Source: Wenzhouxiangella limi (lineage in GTDB: Bacteria > Pseudomonadota > Gammaproteobacteria > Xanthomonadales > Wenzhouxiangellaceae). From it: a DNA stretch of 64,000 bases. Both the position numbers and the translations under genes were made by a program. Within the stretch, counting starts at the first letter, position 1, and each line of letters starts with the position of its first letter. The stretch is taken from assembly GCF_010499265.1 (NCBI RefSeq), contig NZ_JAAGSC010000023.1:62501-126500 (forward strand), given 5' to 3'. The notes under the pieces are model-generated. The model ran no database searches. It saw only the letters and a program-made list of their open reading frames with translations, and was not told the origin of the DNA. This document shows positions 22,984 through 30,154 of the stretch, piece after piece.

Positions 22984-25143
22984 ATGGACGTCTCCCATCT
23001 GCTCGACGAACTCAACGACGCCCAGCGGCAGGCGGTTACCGCGGAGGATGGTCATCTGCTCGTGCTGGCCGGCGCCGGGTCGGGCAAGACCCGGGTGCTG
23101 GTGCACCGGATCGCCTGGCTGATCCAGGTTCACCACGTCTCACCAATGAGCCTGATGGCCGTCACGTTCACCAACAAGGCGGCCGGCGAGATGCGCGGTC
23201 GCGTCGGACGGCTGCTCGACCTCCGCCCCGAAGGACTGTGGATCGGTACCTTCCACGGCATCTGCCATCGCTTGCTGAGAATGCATGCCGCCGAGGTGAA
23301 TCTACCGGATACTTTCCAGATTCTGGATTCCGAAGACCAGTATCGGCTGGTGCGGCGGGTCATCCGCGATCAGCAGATCGACGAAGGCGAGCATCCGCCG
23401 CGACAGGTGCAGGGCTTCATCAACCACCACAAGGACGAAGGCCGGCGGCCCGGACAGATCGAGCACTTTGATCAGGGGTTCCAGGCCCGGCAGGTCGAGA
23501 TCTACCAGCGCTACCAGGACTACTGCGAGCGCTCCGGGCTGGTCGATTTTGCCGAATTGCTGCTGCGCAGCGTCGAACTGTTGCGCGACAACCCGGAACG
23601 CAGAGCCCATTACCAGGCCCGCTTCGGCAACATCCTGATCGACGAATTCCAGGATACCAATACCCTGCAGTATGCGCTGGTACGGCTGCTGGCCGGCGAG
23701 CGTAATCACCTGTTCGTGGTCGGCGACGACGACCAGTCGATTTACGGCTGGCGCGGTGCCCGGGTGGAAAACGTGGCCCACTACAACCGCGATTTTCAAC
23801 CCGAACTGATCCGCCTGGAGCAGAACTATCGCTCCACCCGCACCATTCTCGAAGCGGCCAATCGGGTGATCGACCACAACGATGACCGCATGGGAAAGAA
23901 CCTGTGGACCGAAGGCGAGCAGGGCGAACCGATCCGGCGCTTCGCCGCCTTCAATGCCGAAGAGGAAGCCGAGTTCGTTATCGCCCGCATCCAGGACTGG
24001 ATCGCCCAGGGCGGCCGACCCTCGGACTGCGCGGTGCTGTATCGCTCCAACGCCCAGTCGCGCCTGTTTGAGCAAACGCTGCTGCGCGAGGACATCCCCT
24101 ACCGCGTCTACGGCGGCTTGCGCTTTTTCGAGCGCGCCGAGATCAAGGACGCGATGGCCTACCTGCGACTGCTGCACAACCCGCACGACGATACTGCTTT
24201 CGAGCGAGTGATCAACGTTCCGGCTCGCGGCATCGGCGAGCGCACGGTTGCTCGAATCCGGGACCACGCGCGGACCAATGGCCAGTCGCTGGCCCAGGCG
24301 GCCACCGAGCAGGTAGCCCAGGGCGGACTCAGCGCGCGCGCCGGTCACGCCGTGCGCAGTTTCCTGGCGCTGGTCGCTGATCTGACCGAGGCGTGTGGCT
24401 CGGCCAGTCTGGCCGGGGCCGCCCGCGCCGTGGTTGAACGGACCGAACTCGTTGCCTGGTACCAGACCCGCGAGCCGGCTGATCGAGCCGAGGCCCGCGA
24501 GGAAAACCTCTCCGAACTGGTGCGCGCGGCCGACAGTTTCCAGCAGCCGTTCGAGGACGAGCAGGCCGGCTTAAGCCCCATGGCTTCGTTCCTGTCGCAG
24601 GCCGCGCTGGAGGCTGGCGAACACCAGGCCGAACGCTGGGAAGACTGCGTTCAGCTCATGACCCTCCACTCCGCCAAGGGTCTGGAGTTTCCGCTGGTGT
24701 TCATGGCCGGCATGGAAGAGGGTCTGTTCCCCCACCAGAAATCGATCGAAGAACCCGGACGACTGGCCGAAGAACGACGGCTTTGCTACGTGGGCATGAC
24801 CCGGGCGATGCAGCGTCTGTACATTACCCACGCCGAATCGCGCCAGACCTACGGTCAGACCAGCTTTTCGCGTCCCTCGCGGTTCGTCGCCGAAATCCCC
24901 GAACCGCTGATCGAGTCCATTCGCTCCGGCTTCCGGGTCACCCCGGCCGCTAGCGGCCGCGAGGCGCCCCCGGATACCGGCGGACTTGCGCTGGGTGCCT
25001 CAGTGCGCCACAGCCGCTTCGGGTCCGGCACAGTGGTCAGCCTGGAAGGCCAGGGGCCGAACGCACGAATCCAGGTCAATTTCGAAGACGCCGGCAGCAA
25101 GTGGCTGGTGCTCGCCTACGCCAACCTCGAGCGGATCGGCTGA
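22984..25143 (+). CDS. uvrD: DNA helicase II
   Basis: Superfamily 1A 3'-5' helicase for nucleotide excision and mismatch repair; 719 residues (E. coli 720). MDVSHLLDELNDAQRQAV aligns with the E. coli N-terminus, which fixes the start at 22984. Walker A GAGSGKT (31-37), Walker B LIDEFQDTN, motif III GDDDQSIYGWRGA and motif V LMTLHSAKGLEFP are intact. The C-terminal about 70 residues form the Tudor-like end (GASVRHSRFGSGTVV) that binds RNA polymerase in E. coli. Confidence 0.97.
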   Translation: MDVSHLLDELNDAQRQAVTAEDGHLLVLAGAGSGKTRVLVHRIAWLIQVHHVSPMSLMAVTFTNKAAGEMRGRVGRLLDLRPEGLWIGTFHGICHRLLRMHAAEVNLPDTFQILDSEDQYRLVRRVIRDQQIDEGEHPPRQVQGFINHHKDEGRRPGQIEHFDQGFQARQVEIYQRYQDYCERSGLVDFAELLLRSVELLRDNPERRAHYQARFGNILIDEFQDTNTLQYALVRLLAGERNHLFVVGDDDQSIYGWRGARVENVAHYNRDFQPELIRLEQNYRSTRTILEAANRVIDHNDDRMGKNLWTEGEQGEPIRRFAAFNAEEEAEFVIARIQDWIAQGGRPSDCAVLYRSNAQSRLFEQTLLREDIPYRVYGGLRFFERAEIKDAMAYLRLLHNPHDDTAFERVINVPARGIGERTVARIRDHARTNGQSLAQAATEQVAQGGLSARAGHAVRSFLALVADLTEACGSASLAGAARAVVERTELVAWYQTREPADRAEAREENLSELVRAADSFQQPFEDEQAGLSPMASFLSQAALEAGEHQAERWEDCVQLMTLHSAKGLEFPLVFMAGMEEGLFPHQKSIEEPGRLAEERRLCYVGMTRAMQRLYITHAESRQTYGQTSFSRPSRFVAEIPEPLIESIRSGFRVTPAASGREAPPDTGGLALGASVRHSRFGSGTVVSLEGQGPNARIQVNFEDAGSKWLVLAYANLERIG

Positions 25144-25175
25144 TCCCCGGCCGGCGACCAAACGGACACGCAGCG

Positions 25176-25901
25176 ATGAAACAGAACAACTGGCGAAAGG
25201 ATATTCCCGAACGTGAACGCCTGATTTTTGCCCTGGACGTCCCCGAGCCTGATCAGGCGATGGAGCTGGTGGACGACCTGGGTGATTCGGTCGTGTTCTA
25301 CAAGCTCGGCCTGGAGTTGTTTCTGAGCGGCGCTTACTTCGAGCTGGCCTCGGAGTTGAAGCGGCGCGGGAAAAGGATTTTTGCCGACCTCAAACTATTC
25401 GACATCCCCGCCACGGTTGGTCGCGCGGTTGCCCAGCTGGCCCGACACGAGGTGGATTTCCTGACCGTGCACGGCAACGATGCGATGCTGCAGGCCGCGG
25501 TCGACCAGCGCGGGAAGACCGCCATCCTCGCCGTCACGGCGCTGACCAGCCTGGATCGCGGGGATCTTGACGACCTGGGCTTCGACTGCGATATCGAGGC
25601 ACTGGTGCTCTCGCGCGCCCGGCGGGCGCTGGCGATCGGCTGCGCCGGTGTCATTTCTTCGGGTCTGGAGGCGGCCGCGCTGCGGCAACAGGTCGATCCC
25701 GCGCTGGTCGTGGTCTGCCCCGGCATCCGACCGGTTGACAACGACGGTGGCGACCAGAAACGGACGTTGTCGGTCCGGCAGGCCTTTGCGGCCGGGGCCG
25801 ACTACATCGTGGTGGGCCGACCCATCCGCGATGCCGGCGACCCCCGGGCGGCAGCCGAAAAGATTCAGGCGCAGATTAAGCGATTTTTCAGTGCTTTATG
25901 A
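25176..25901 (+). CDS. pyrF: orotidine 5'-phosphate decarboxylase
   Basis: Decarboxylates OMP to UMP, the last step of pyrimidine synthesis; 241 residues. The catalytic D-x-K-x-x-D reads DLKLFDIP, with LIFALDVPEPDQA at the N-terminus and VCPGIRPVDNDGGDQKR and DYIVVGRPI near the C-terminus (phosphate site). ATG at 25176 gives a usual length. It lies 32 nt after uvrD. The C-terminal codons run into the AT-rich region that precedes plsB. Confidence 0.95.
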   Translation: MKQNNWRKDIPERERLIFALDVPEPDQAMELVDDLGDSVVFYKLGLELFLSGAYFELASELKRRGKRIFADLKLFDIPATVGRAVAQLARHEVDFLTVHGNDAMLQAAVDQRGKTAILAVTALTSLDRGDLDDLGFDCDIEALVLSRARRALAIGCAGVISSGLEAAALRQQVDPALVVVCPGIRPVDNDGGDQKRTLSVRQAFAAGADYIVVGRPIRDAGDPRAAAEKIQAQIKRFFSAL

Positions 25902-25906
25902 TTTTT

Positions 25907-25924
25907 TTATCAGGCGCTTGATAA
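25907..25924. promoter_or_regulatory. 18-bp near-perfect palindrome, operator-like
   Basis: TTATCAGGC / GCTTGATAA pairs at 8 of 9 positions. It overlaps the -35 of the promoter at 25918-25946, the position expected of a repressor site. No regulator can be named from it. Confidence 0.4.
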
Positions 25925-25946
25925 GAAGAAAGTTTTAACGTACTAT
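25918..25946 (+). promoter_or_regulatory. candidate sigma-70 promoter after pyrF
   Basis: TTGATA (25918-25923, 5/6) and TACTAT (25941-25946, 4/6) are separated by exactly 17 nt in an AT-rich stretch unlike the surrounding high-GC DNA. Predicted start near 25953. The transcript would meet the intrinsic terminator at 26045-26075 before reaching plsB. Confidence 0.55.
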
Positions 25947-25952
25947 TTGACC

Positions 25953-26075
25953 TGAGGATTACTTCGCACTGTAACTCTCGCTCAACAATCAACAAGGGGT
26001 CGAAAGTTTCGGCATTCGCCCCACTACCGGTACAGGCCGGATCCGGGCGCCTCGTTTTCGAAGCGCCCTTTTTTT
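25953..26075 (+). ncRNA. candidate small RNA or attenuated leader upstream of plsB
   Basis: About 123 nt from the promoter-predicted start to the end of the terminator U-run. It contains no reading frame with a ribosome site, and has several possible hairpins: GGGG (25996-25999) with CCCC (26019-26022) enclosing the palindrome CGAAAGTTTCG, CCGG/CCGG near 26027-26040, and the terminator. It could be a stand-alone small RNA or a leader controlling read-through into plsB. Not matched to any family I know. Position and structure are seen; function is inference. Confidence 0.4.
26045..26075 (+). terminator. intrinsic terminator
   Basis: GGGCGC (26045-26050) pairs with GCGCCC (26063-26068); an inner TCG/CGA pair closes a TTTT loop, and seven T follow. 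This is the clearest rho-independent terminator in the window. It lies 71 nt before the plsB start. Confidence 0.85.
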
Positions 26076-26111
26076 GTCCGCGACAAGGCGGGCTGGCCAA
26101 ACGGCCGATGA

Positions 26112-26117
26112 TAGAAT
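26112..26117 (+). promoter_or_regulatory. -10 box candidate for plsB
   Basis: TAGAAT, five of six consensus positions, 30 nt before the plsB ATG and downstream of the terminator, which would give plsB its own promoter. No good -35 found. Confidence 0.35.
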
Positions 26118-26146
26118 CCGGAGTCTTTTTCAAGCAAACCTTTGCC

Positions 26147-28654
26147 ATGGCCCAGTACAGCCGCGTTCGCCGTCTCGGGATGACCGTCCACGCGGCATGG
26201 CTGGGTTTCTTGCGCTGGCTGCTGCACCTGTGGGTTCGAAGCACGATTGTTCCCGAGGACCTGTCCGAGCTGGGCCTGGATCCTGATCAACCCACCTTCT
26301 ACGTGCTTGACACCTCTGCGCTGACCTCGCTGCTGATCGCCGATCAGATCTGCCGGCAGCAGGGCTGGCATCAGCCCAGCCGTGAATTCCGGGCCGGCGA
26401 GGTCCGCATGACGCGCAGCTATGCCGCCCATCGACGCTATCGTGGGCTGTTCATTCGAACGCTGCAGCGGCGACGCCATTCGGCCATGCTGCGGCAACTG
26501 CTGGAGCGGACCGAGCCCGGCAAACCGTCCGGCATCCAGGTGGTTCCCATCACGGTGCTGATCGGCCGGGCGCCGGAAAACGAGGCCGGCTTCTTCAAGG
26601 TGCTGTTTTCGGAAAACTGGGACCTCGGGGGGCGTTTGCGGCGCCTCTTCACGACCGTGTTCAACGGCCGCGCAACGATGGTGCAATTCGGGCAGCCGCT
26701 AATGCTCGACGACATTCGAGACCAGAGCGAAGACGAAAGCCAGGCCCTGGCCAAGCTGAGCCGGATGCTCCGAGTGCACTTCAAGAGCGTACGCACCGCG
26801 GCCATCGGCCCCGATCGATCACACCGGCGAACGCTCGTCGAAACCGTGATCAAGAGCGAGGTCGTCCAGGCGGCGGTTGCCGCCCGGGCACGACGGGACG
26901 ACATTCCCCATGCCCGCGCCGAAGACATCGCGCGCGGCTACGCGCGCGAAATCGCCGCCGACTATTCCTACACCCTGATCCGAATCGCCGACATGCTGCT
27001 GACCTGGTTCTGGAACCGGATCTATCGCGGCGTGGAGGTCAAGCATTTTCGCGCCTTCCGCGAAAACTCGGCGGGGCACGAGGTGGTCTACGTTCCCTGC
27101 CATCGCAGCCATATCGACTACCTGCTGCTGAGCTACCTGCTCTACTATCGCGGCTTCGTACCCCCGCACATTGCCGCCGGCGTCAATCTCAACATGCCCG
27201 TGATCGGGCCGCTGCTGCGCCGCGGGGGGGCATTCTTCCTGCGCCGGTCGTTCCGCTCGCAGCCACTGTACGCGGCCGTGTTCAACCAGTACGTGTCGCT
27301 GATCCTCAGCCGGGGCGTTTCGCTGGAGTATTTCATCGAGGGTACTCGGTCGCGAACCGGGCGTCTTCTACCGCCACGGGCCGGGATGCTTTCGATCACC
27401 GTCCGGGCCTTTCTGCGGGCCCAGAACCGGCCGGTCATGTTCCAGCCGGTCTACATCGGCTACGAGCAGCTGGCCGAGGGCAACTCCTATATCTCGGAGT
27501 TGTCCGGCCGGCAGAAAAAGCCCGAATCCCTCTCGGATTTTCGTAACCTGATCAATATCCTGCGCAAGAACTACGGCGAGGTGACGGTCAGCTTCGGCGA
27601 ACCCATCATGCTCAACGCGCTGCTGGATGCCCATCGCCCGGACTGGAAGCAGGAGAGTTTCGGCCTCGACAGCAAACCGCCCTGGCTGCCGGGAATGATC
27701 GACGACCTGGCCAATCGCATCATGGTCAACATCAACCGCAGCTCGCACGTCAACCCGGTCAACCTGCTGGCCATCGCCTTGCTCGCAGGCCGCAAGCATG
27801 CGCTTGACGAAAGCGATCTCCAGCGCCTGCTCGAACTATTGAAATCGCTGGTCGGGGGCCTGGCATATTCCGACCGGGTGACGGTCACGGACATGCCCGC
27901 CGAGCAGATCATCGAATACGGCCTGGAGATGGGGCTGGTCGAACGCCACGTGCATCGCCTGGGCAGCATCATCCGAACCGACGCCACGACTGCGGTGCTG
28001 CTGACCTATTTCCGCAACAACGCGGCCCACCTGCTGGCCATGAGCGCCTGGATTGCCTGCTGTTTTCTCAACATGCAGCGAATCCGACGTAGCCGGCTCA
28101 AGCAATTGACCGCCACGGTCTATCCATTTCTTCGGCGGGAACTCTTCCTGCCCTGGGATAACGACGATATCGACGAGGTTGTCGACCGCACCGCCGATTT
28201 GATGGTGGAGCTCGGGCTGCTGCGGCAGTCGCAGGACCGCCTTCAGCGGGCGCCCGGCGGCAGCAACGAAACGTACTACCTGCGGTTGCTCGCCAACACC
28301 ATGGTTCAGACCTTCGAGCGCTACTTCATTACCGTGACCGTGCTGGCCAAGAACGGTTCGGGCTGCCTGACCCGGCAGCAGCTCGAACAGCTGTGCATTC
28401 TTTCAGCGCAGCGCATTTCTCTGCTGCACCAGTTCGAAGCGCCGGAATTCTACGATCGAACCCTGTTCAAACAGTTCATCCAGTCGCTGACCGAGTCCGG
28501 CATTCTTGGTCGAAACGATGACGGCTGCCTGGTCTTCGATCAGCGCCTGGAAGGTTTTGCAAAGGACGCGCGCCTGATCCTGGACAAGGAAGTCCGGCAC
28601 GCAATCATTCAGGTCACGCCGGACGCACTGGAAGTCGAACCGCCGAAGGGCTGA
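26147..28654 (+). CDS. plsB: glycerol-3-phosphate 1-O-acyltransferase
   Basis: Inner-membrane enzyme that acylates sn-1 of glycerol-3-phosphate, the first step of phospholipid synthesis; 835 residues (E. coli 807). All four acyltransferase blocks are visible: HRSHIDYLLLSY (I), GAFFLRRSF (II), FIEGTRSRTG (III) and FQPVYIGYE (IV). The ATG at 26147 (MAQYSRVRR) was preferred to an open codon at 26108, which would overlap the -10 box. It is convergent with the DUF465 gene, 27 nt apart. Confidence 0.95.
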   Translation: MAQYSRVRRLGMTVHAAWLGFLRWLLHLWVRSTIVPEDLSELGLDPDQPTFYVLDTSALTSLLIADQICRQQGWHQPSREFRAGEVRMTRSYAAHRRYRGLFIRTLQRRRHSAMLRQLLERTEPGKPSGIQVVPITVLIGRAPENEAGFFKVLFSENWDLGGRLRRLFTTVFNGRATMVQFGQPLMLDDIRDQSEDESQALAKLSRMLRVHFKSVRTAAIGPDRSHRRTLVETVIKSEVVQAAVAARARRDDIPHARAEDIARGYAREIAADYSYTLIRIADMLLTWFWNRIYRGVEVKHFRAFRENSAGHEVVYVPCHRSHIDYLLLSYLLYYRGFVPPHIAAGVNLNMPVIGPLLRRGGAFFLRRSFRSQPLYAAVFNQYVSLILSRGVSLEYFIEGTRSRTGRLLPPRAGMLSITVRAFLRAQNRPVMFQPVYIGYEQLAEGNSYISELSGRQKKPESLSDFRNLINILRKNYGEVTVSFGEPIMLNALLDAHRPDWKQESFGLDSKPPWLPGMIDDLANRIMVNINRSSHVNPVNLLAIALLAGRKHALDESDLQRLLELLKSLVGGLAYSDRVTVTDMPAEQIIEYGLEMGLVERHVHRLGSIIRTDATTAVLLTYFRNNAAHLLAMSAWIACCFLNMQRIRRSRLKQLTATVYPFLRRELFLPWDNDDIDEVVDRTADLMVELGLLRQSQDRLQRAPGGSNETYYLRLLANTMVQTFERYFITVTVLAKNGSGCLTRQQLEQLCILSAQRISLLHQFEAPEFYDRTLFKQFIQSLTESGILGRNDDGCLVFDQRLEGFAKDARLILDKEVRHAIIQVTPDALEVEPPKG

Positions 28655-28681: not shown

Positions 28682-28885
28682 TCAGGCGTCAAGGTCCGGA
28701 ATCAACTTGCTTTCCCAGTAGTCGATCTGGTCGCGCAGCCTTAGCTTGCGTTTCTTCATTCTGCGCAGCCGCAATTGATCGGTCGACGGGGTACTGGACA
28801 GCTGTCCAATGGCATCGTCGAGATCGCGATGCTCCTGGCGCAGCAGCATGAGACGGGACTGGATCGATGGTTCCTGAGCAGACAA
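28682..28885 (-). CDS. DUF465 (YdcH/SlyX-like) small protein
   Basis: 67 residues from a TTG at 28885, which has GGGGAA just upstream; the first ATG (28849) would give only 55. The pattern RLMLLRQEHRDLDDAI, then RLRRMKKRKLRLRDQI, is the DUF465 helical hairpin. E. coli YdcH has 74 residues. These proteins are common in proteobacteria and of unknown function. The open frame continues far upstream, antisense to the lipoprotein gene, but that part is not coding-like. Confidence 0.8.
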   Translation of the reverse strand: MSAQEPSIQSRLMLLRQEHRDLDDAIGQLSSTPSTDQLRLRRMKKRKLRLRDQIDYWESKLIPDLDA

Positions 28886-28942
28886 GGCGCTTCCCCGCTT
28901 CGGGCGAGCATTGCAGGTCAACAGTGTACTGGAACTGACCCC

Positions 28943-28972
28943 TTCAACGCCATTGGCGCGGTGGTGTATTCT
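28943..28972 (+). promoter_or_regulatory. candidate promoter for the repeat lipoprotein
   Basis: TTCAAC (28943-28948) and TATTCT (28967-28972) at 18-nt spacing; the -10 ends 33 nt before the ATG at 29006. Both boxes are only moderate matches. Confidence 0.3.
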
Positions 28973-29005
28973 CTCAGCGTTGCACACGCTTTTTAGGGTA
29001 TCGAC

Positions 29006-29740
29006 ATGTCCAGATTTGTCGTTTTTGTACTGCTGCTGGCCCTGGCTGCCTGCGGCACGGTCAACCAGTCGATCGAGGTTGCACAGGGTGAGCGGGTAGA
29101 GGGCGATCTGCGATCCGTCAATGGAGCGGTACGAATCGGTGAAGAGGCGCAGGTTTCGGGTAGCCTGTCCAGCGTCAACGGACCGGTCGAGGTCGGCGAA
29201 CGGGCCCGCGTGGGCGCGATCACGAACGTTAACGGGCGGATCGAAATTCACGCCGGGGCTGAAACCGGGCCGACCGAATCGGTCAACGGAGCCGTCACGC
29301 TCGGTGAGCAGGCGAGCATCACGGGCAACCTCAGCGCCGTCAACGGCAGTATCGAGGTCGGCGAATCCGGTCAGGTCGACGGCGACGTAGTGACCGTGAA
29401 CGGGCGCGTGAGTCTGGGACCGAACGCGCGGGTGGCCGGAAAAGTGGCCAACGTGCGCGGCAAGATCGCACTGGACGGTGCTTTCGTCGAGCAGGTCGAA
29501 ACCACCGCCGGCTCCATCGATCTGACCGGCGCCACGGTGGTGGAAGGAAAGCTTCGGGTCAAGGCCCCGGAAAACAGCGATACCGACGTACCGCAAATCG
29601 TGATCGGACCGCAGGTCAAGGTCGGCGGGCCGCTGCAGTTCGACCGCGAGGTGAAACTGCTGATCCACGATGACGCCGACGTCGGTGAGATCATTGGCGC
29701 CGAGCCCGAATGTTTCAGCTGCGAGATCACCGACCTCTGA
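29006..29740 (+). CDS. lipoprotein with about 19-residue VNG beta-repeats (bactofilin-like)
   Basis: 244 residues. Lipobox LAAC at residues 13-16. From residue 19 to about 152 the sequence is a run of short repeats in which VNG recurs at 38-40, 57-59, 75-77, 93-95, 112-114 and 131-133, i.e. every 18-19 residues, with weaker copies at both ends. Each unit has the form xVNGxVxVGExAxVxGxL, which suggests a right-handed beta-helix like the polymer-forming bactofilins. The last 90 residues diverge and end with two Cys (ECFSC). Probably outer-membrane or periplasmic; function unknown. Confidence 0.75.
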   Translation: MSRFVVFVLLLALAACGTVNQSIEVAQGERVEGDLRSVNGAVRIGEEAQVSGSLSSVNGPVEVGERARVGAITNVNGRIEIHAGAETGPTESVNGAVTLGEQASITGNLSAVNGSIEVGESGQVDGDVVTVNGRVSLGPNARVAGKVANVRGKIALDGAFVEQVETTAGSIDLTGATVVEGKLRVKAPENSDTDVPQIVIGPQVKVGGPLQFDREVKLLIHDDADVGEIIGAEPECFSCEITDL

Positions 29741-29755
29741 AATCCCCGCGAAGCG

Positions 29756-30154
29756 TCAGTCCTGGCGGACTCCGTTGACCTTGATCCAGCCGCCGCCTCC
29801 GGACTGAGACGGATCCGGATGCGTCCGCGATACCGTGCCACCGCCGCCGTGAAAGTTATAAAGCCCGTGAAAATCCAGGCGGTCTCCCGCCGCCACGCTG
29901 ATTCCGGAAGCTGCCTCGGTATCCCTTCGCACGATGACGCTGAGATCATCGCTCACGCGGACCTGAACGCGCTGCTCTGCGCCCGTTGTCCCCAGCTCCC
30001 GGACGACAATGCCGTGACCGCTCAACCAGATCCCGCTGCGTCCTTCGGCAAACGCGCGCTCAAGACGATCGTTGGAGGTCTCAGACTCACCACCGCAGCT
30101 GACGCCAGCGACGACCACTGCCGTGATCAGCAGCCAGAAAAATACTGATTTCAT
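29756..30154 (-). CDS. DUF3465 lipoprotein
   Basis: 132 residues. Signal peptide with lipobox GVSC (Cys about residue 20). The second half fits DUF3465: VRVSDDLSVIVRRDT, GDRLDFHGLYNF, GGGTVSRTHPDP, then GGGGWIKVNG. These are OB-like nucleotide-free beta proteins of unknown role. It lies 98 nt behind atpC on the same strand but is separated by a hairpin, so it may be an independent unit. Confidence 0.75.
   Translation of the reverse strand: MKSVFFWLLITAVVVAGVSCGGESETSNDRLERAFAEGRSGIWLSGHGIVVRELGTTGAEQRVQVRVSDDLSVIVRRDTEAASGISVAAGDRLDFHGLYNFHGGGGTVSRTHPDPSQSGGGGWIKVNGVRQD

Follow-up and report, generated by a model that had tools for sequence, protein, structure and literature searches.

What does the gap between pyrF and plsB (25901 to 26147) encode in the 64,000-nucleotide stretch of Wenzhouxiangella limi DNA analysed here (the window): a leader for conditional read-through into plsB, or a small RNA in its own right? 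The first-pass annotation of this DNA had proposed both. Comparison of the locus within the genus and across the order indicates that the stretch is almost certainly a small-RNA gene, and we propose that its product is very probably a stand-alone, Hfq-dependent sRNA that is transcribed by sigma-70 RNA polymerase and acts in trans.

The gap holds, in this order, a promoter, a predicted RNA of about 124 nt and an intrinsic terminator (Table 1), all on the same strand as pyrF and directly 3' of it, with the -35 hexamer beginning 16 nt past the pyrF stop. The promoter, TTGATA-17-TACTAT, has 9 of 12 consensus matches and is the sole promoter-like site in 24000-28000 (0.3 ± 0.6 in shuffles), in agreement with the sigma-70-like promoter with 17-nt spacing that the first-pass annotation had described. 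Its further description of an AT-rich island lacking an open frame is likewise borne out: GC content is 0.37-0.39 in 25850-25999 versus 0.59-0.73 over the 400 bases preceding 25900, and no plus-strand ORF of at least 20 aa begins within the predicted RNA (checked up to 26073). An 18-bp palindrome overlapping the -35, TTATCAGGCGCTTGATAA, fared differently, in that it exists but appears to carry no meaning: 18-mers as good number 26 in the 64-kb window and the palindrome is not conserved in the comparison of relatives, so that a role as operator was rejected and we regard it as incidental. Around the other 25 promoters of the window, the best nearby palindrome has 6 of 9 pairs.

The predicted RNA folds at -43.6 kcal/mol, versus -31.8 ± 3.6 kcal/mol for shuffles (z -3.3, with 1 shuffle in 200 folding equally well), into the terminator and three further hairpins that are predicted as separate elements, in line with the segment of about 123 nt with several hairpins that had been delimited before. 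The terminator noted at that time is supported by RNA folding and sequence, although a simple terminator scan (5 others found, 3.7 expected) did not list it, which we attribute to a C-A mismatch in its stem. The 5' domain, consisting of SL1 and the linker CAACAAUCAACAA, is well conserved among close relatives. Across 17 sequences, 88.9% of the SL1 cells are paired; sliding the structure lowers this to 60.8% or less, while column shuffles give 87.1%. Since only one pair has changes on both sides and pair-type counts are not above those of shuffles (486 of 500 as high), we grade the covariation support for SL1 as moderate. The first-pass annotation had made its reading depend on conservation of the hairpins among close relatives, and that check leaves the reading standing.

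Table 1. Features of the pyrF-plsB region, in window coordinates.
Feature	Position	Strand	Basis
pyrF, orotidine 5'-phosphate decarboxylase, upstream neighbour of the sRNA	25176..25901	+	PF00215, E 2.6e-49
18-bp palindrome TTATCAGGCGCTTGATAA over the -35	25907..25924	.	8/9 pairs; judged incidental
-35 hexamer TTGATA, sRNA promoter	25918..25923	+	Sequence; TTG 17-18 nt from -10 in 26/26 genus loci with RNA
-10 hexamer TACTAT, sRNA promoter	25941..25946	+	Sequence; kept in genus loci
sRNA, about 124 nt, predicted	25952..26075	+	Start inferred 6-7 nt past -10, end in T run; fold, genus layout, model R1
SL1, 5' hairpin (GAGG..UUAC / GUAA..CUC)	25954..25979	+	Fold; pairing kept in 17 sequences
Single-stranded linker GCUCAACAAUCAACAA; candidate seed, candidate A-rich Hfq distal-face site	25980..25995	+	Conserved in the window's subgroup; function inferred
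SL2, hairpin, sequence variable	25996..26022	+	Fold
SL3, CCGGU-ACAG-GCCGG hairpin, at the place of other branches' CCGG core hairpin	26027..26040	+	Fold; linked by model to this subgroup via G013 only (E 0.01)
Intrinsic terminator: GGGCGCCTCGTTTTCGAAGCGCCC (26045-26068) and seven T (26069-26075)	26045..26075	+	Sequence, fold, genus conservation
TGATAGAAT, extended -10 of plsB's own promoter	26109..26117	+	TGNTANANT in 26/26 loci
plsB, glycerol-3-phosphate acyltransferase, downstream neighbour of the sRNA	26147..28654	+	PF19277, PF01553

Beyond plsB, the window encodes a predicted 244-aa lipoprotein built of 'S/TVNG' repeats and without a Pfam match (29006-29740, plus strand), a long opposite-strand ORF over this gene that is probably spurious (28682-29668), and a 132-aa DUF3465 protein (29756-30154, minus strand; PF11948).

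The architecture of the window's locus recurs throughout the genus. In a DNA search of 61 genomes, the window itself and five further genomes came up at E ≤ 2.1e-9, and a sixth relative (G016, E 0.005) was accepted for its place as well as its sequence; unrelated matches occur at similar E values (for example G046 at 0.0035). All seven loci lie between pyrF and plsB. A genus set was then assembled from every pyrF in 30 genomes, giving 27 loci with usable downstream sequence; G004 (no pyrF match) as well as G008 and G010 (contig ends) were left out. In 26 of these 27 intact loci, with -10 hexamers picked by eye, pyrF is followed by a TTG-17/18-TAnnnT promoter (17 nt spacer in 19 loci, 18 nt in 7) and then by an RNA 78-132 nt long with a T-run terminator, the one locus without the RNA being that of G011. 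A strict automatic scan recovered the cassette at 18 of the 26 genus loci of at least 150 nt, compared with 0.1 in shuffles. The window locus itself passes the pattern of TTG, 16-18 nt, TAnnnT and a U-tailed terminator 45-190 nt later, and its RNA has a 5' hairpin followed by an A/C-rich linker, as does the wider pyrF-linked family.

Three models connect the branches of this family. R1, a model of the 5' domain from seven genomes including the window's, has E < 0.01 at 15 of the 27 genus loci, of which 8 are outside the model, and every match falls at the RNA start; in the window, whose sequence is part of the model, it matches 25951-25995 at E 7e-16, the next match having an E value of 0.12. 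R2 describes the 3' end from 39 sequences, none of them from the window's genus, and is sequence-only because RNAalifold gave no consensus pair for these diverse 3' sequences. It matches nine of the 27 genus loci at E ≤ 0.013, each on the 3' end of the RNA, and these nine include G013, a member of the window's own subgroup (E 0.01). R3, a structural 3' model from 13 sequences, again none from the genus, reaches E < 1e-4 at 8 of the 27 genus loci. Of 66 order loci, all of them outside the model, it matches 21 at E < 0.01. The shared element, which we call the CCGG core, is a CU-rich stretch leading into a CCGGC-loop-GCCGG hairpin just 5' of the terminator, and it was found in families f1, f2, f4, f6, f8 and f12; its stem never varies across the 13 sequences of alignment A5, and the core hairpin therefore yields no covariation. 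In the window, a CCGG-type hairpin (SL3) is predicted by folding at the corresponding place, and neither R2 nor R3 matches the window's own copy (L058). The window is thus tied to the wider family by a chain, in which the slot and promoter are the same, the 5' domain would be shared with related subgroups, and the 3' domain of other subgroups would be shared with the order. An R3 match elsewhere in the window (26358-26411, minus strand) was taken as chance.

Outside the genus, the cassette is common in the order. A pyrF match was present in 103 of 180 order genomes, the other 77 falling mostly outside the counts, and the sequence behind pyrF was read for 84 of the 88 order genomes outside the genus. 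The strict scan found the cassette in 57 of these 84 (0.15 in shuffles) and a looser scan in 58; of the 27 missed by the strict scan, several have no copy by R3 either. R3 adds four order genomes with a copy behind pyrF (G184, G074, G122 and G170). In family f12 it also matches at two loci where pyrF itself gave no match, L332 (G071) and L335 (G064). At L335, the R3 match lies between two ORFs, the first resembling a HAD-type phosphatase by its motif and the second lipoprotein-like, with a weak plsB match beyond, and the ORFs at L332 are similar. A loose pattern search of genome contigs returned at least 116 stretches, of which 20 among the matches listed were re-scored and two were real (L113 and L134). 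The strict scan found no cassette in 40 class genomes outside the order; of the 117 matched, these were the 20 whose pyrF is most similar, together with 20 more. With an E value of 0.01 or less, a class-wide R3 search hit 4 of 232 genomes, close to the chance level (2.3), and so gave no evidence for the RNA outside the order; this search is insensitive, since it also missed two members of the order that carry the RNA, G037 and G048.

The slot is not uniform in content. The CCGG core is absent from six of the 58 looser-scan loci, namely three in f3, two in f11 and that of G040, and these six may hold a different RNA in the same slot. Family f11 (L108, L259, L268 and L270) has another conserved segment behind pyrF, GUGACGAUU..CAGCCAGCGCAGGAAGCGC, without the core, and the scan found a promoter in two of these four genomes. 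Family f3 (L100, L104 and L254) has a short RNA-like cassette of about 78 nt behind pyrF, also without the core, in which a conserved GCGCCA(A/G)GUGACGAUGGCGNCCUGCA segment is kept.

The position of plsB raises the alternative of a leader with conditional termination, such as an attenuator or riboswitch, whose terminator would set the access of the polymerase to plsB. This reading can draw on gene order, as 25 of the 26 genus loci with the RNA have plsB as the next gene and the 26th (G009) stops at a contig end, and on four order genomes (G100, G208, G061 and G095) that have no cassette directly behind pyrF and carry an R3 match just before plsB. However, an attenuator would leave plsB with no promoter of its own beyond the terminator, whereas sequence evidence places an extended -10 motif, TGNTANANT, downstream of the terminator and ahead of plsB in 26 of 26 loci with the RNA (mononucleotide shuffles predict 0.17). 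The distance from the motif to the inferred plsB start is 34-63 nt; in G009, the contig ends 12 nt after it. It is kept even in the RNA-less G011, and in the window it includes TAGAAT at 26112-26117, so that the -10 previously ascribed to plsB at 26112 is upheld. Outside the genus, among 18 cassette loci with about 1.5 kb of downstream sequence, plsB is the next gene in 5, lies at a distance of roughly 1 kb or greater in three (G033, G040 and G041), and was not matched in 10 within the sequence covered. Moreover, no plus-strand ORF starts in the RNA and its predicted hairpins are separate, which also argues against a leader. We therefore consider a plsB leader improbable. Of the two options in the first-pass annotation, read-through is unsupported in the genus and, beyond it, sits poorly with an RNA that is often not adjacent to plsB, though four genomes keep it there, away from pyrF; the stand-alone small RNA is well supported by the conserved promoter, layout, terminator and position, and by the presence of sX14/Xoo3 in the same slot at some loci. 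The RNA appears to accompany either pyrF or plsB, as an independent unit would, and it may have a role on plsB in some lineages.

Two further explanations concern the origin and the mode of action of the RNA. It could derive from the pyrF 3' UTR or be no more than the terminator of the pyrF operon, released in processing of the pyrF mRNA, and indeed no terminator is seen between pyrF and the cassette, so that read-through from pyrF would end at the same site. We think this quite unlikely, given that all 26 genus loci with the RNA retain a TTG promoter spaced at 17-18 nt, that the RNA occurs away from pyrF in G061, G095 and the f12 loci lacking a pyrF match, and that the 5' domain is conserved beyond the need of a passive terminator. 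Alternatively, the several hairpins of the RNA and a GGA in or beside the SL1 loop of one subgroup (for example G016, G028, G022, G012 and G006) could suggest a protein sponge, such as an RsmA/CsrA decoy, instead of a base-pairing sRNA. That GGA is not conserved and is absent at this place in the window's subgroup, and the known relative sX14/Xoo3 needs Hfq according to two studies (PMC3039613, PMC3771888), which makes a sponge highly unlikely.

On these grounds, we favour a stand-alone sRNA and propose the following hypothetical course of events, in which (i) sigma-70 RNA polymerase would start at about 25952 and stop at the intrinsic terminator; (ii) the product would open with a 5' hairpin and an exposed A/C-rich linker, continue with two more hairpins and close with the U-tailed terminator, and would represent the Wenzhouxiangella branch of a behind-pyrF sRNA family that includes Xanthomonas sX14/Xoo3; (iii) Hfq, by homology to sX14/Xoo3, would stabilise the RNA through the U tail and the A-rich linker; and (iv) the RNA, again by homology, would act in trans through short base pairing with mRNAs. 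An hfq gene is present in 21 of 21 genomes tested, that of the window included. Many branches would pair through the CU-rich stretch by the CCGG hairpin, UCCUCUCC, which is complementary to Shine-Dalgarno sequences; for the window's subgroup, the conserved CUCUCGCUCAACAAUCAACAA segment is the likelier site.

It is conceivable, and we put it forward tentatively as possible rather than probable, that one sRNA has occupied the slot behind pyrF since the ancestor of the order while its targeting part was exchanged, with many branches using a CU-rich, Shine-Dalgarno-blocking 3' element that the window's branch has lost, having instead the strongly conserved 5' CUCUCGCUCAACAAUCAACAA. An sRNA gene would then have stayed fixed in place while its regulon was rewired. 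If the chain linking the branches holds, the gene is part of a widespread family of Hfq-dependent sRNAs located beside pyrF or plsB, and probably serves a core function that has escaped detection in knock-outs. It would then be open to study in non-pathogenic members such as Wenzhouxiangella, and its branch-by-branch change would make seed evolution testable. NCBI taxonomy places Wenzhouxiangella in Chromatiales; the genome collection used here places it in one order with genomes carrying sX14 behind pyrF. The RNA may also serve as a common marker that joins Wenzhouxiangella with the Xanthomonas lineage, in contrast to the NCBI placement.

How does the window RNA relate to known sRNAs? Rfam 15 gave no match in the window at the gathering score, nor at 17 further loci, and the permissive matches in the window were weak and taken as chance. 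Among these was Spot 42 (RF00021), which is similar in size and matches weakly over its full length, with 16.7 bits (E 0.65) against a cut-off of 80 bits, and was judged to be chance; the neighbourhood of Spot 42 differs from the pyrF-plsB locus. The sX14 model RF02233 (cut-off 80 bits) has no match in 25880-26160 at E ≤ 10, nor in L035 at E ≤ 1. Among the loci tested, it passes its cut-off solely at 3 of 20 behind-pyrF loci (L284, L286 and L275), all of genus g42, which is taken to be Xanthomonas, and stays below it in three other genera (49.4, 32.8 and 31.7 bits). Literature searches on a pyrF/plsB sRNA, on Wenzhouxiangella and, by title among the papers listed, on Stenotrophomonas/Lysobacter returned no description outside Xanthomonas. 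Schmidtke et al. 2012 is reportedly the study that defined sX14.

In Xanthomonas itself, the X. oryzae study describes Xoo3 as a 93-nt RNA confirmed by Northern blot and 5' RACE, which is most abundant in early growth and falls sharply when hfq is missing; deleting Xoo3 changed 26 proteins on 2-D gels, and an obvious phenotype was seen in none of seven sRNA mutants (PMC3039613). The conservation table there covers Xanthomonas and Xylella strains only, with Xoo3 present in the former and absent from the latter, and the study reports no related sRNA from other species (PMC3039613). Likewise, in X. campestris pv. vesicatoria an hfq mutation is described as greatly lowering sX14 (PMC3771888), and what is available of PMC7694677 does not mention pyrF. 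Another Xanthomonas RNA, sX13, resembles the window RNA as a trans-acting sRNA of 115 nt with C-rich loops, but it is encoded at another locus, behind polA, and is described as Hfq-independent (PMC3771888).

The window RNA differs from sX14/Xoo3 in several respects. It has a different 5' hairpin and an additional hairpin, SL2, and lacks a CU-rich stretch before the CCGG hairpin; furthermore, its next gene is plsB, whereas in X. oryzae the two genes flanking Xoo3 are described as differing in orientation (PMC3039613). As the sX14 model does not match the window RNA, we would not file it in RF02233 but in the wider pyrF-linked family. The likeness, in turn, extends to the same slot behind pyrF in L284, L286 and L275, to a TTG-17-TAnnnT promoter in both, to a similar size (92-93 nt versus about 124 nt predicted for the window RNA), and to a common layout of 5' hairpin, linker, CCGG hairpin and U-tailed terminator. 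The window RNA, which would work like sX14/Xoo3, is probably its counterpart in Wenzhouxiangella.
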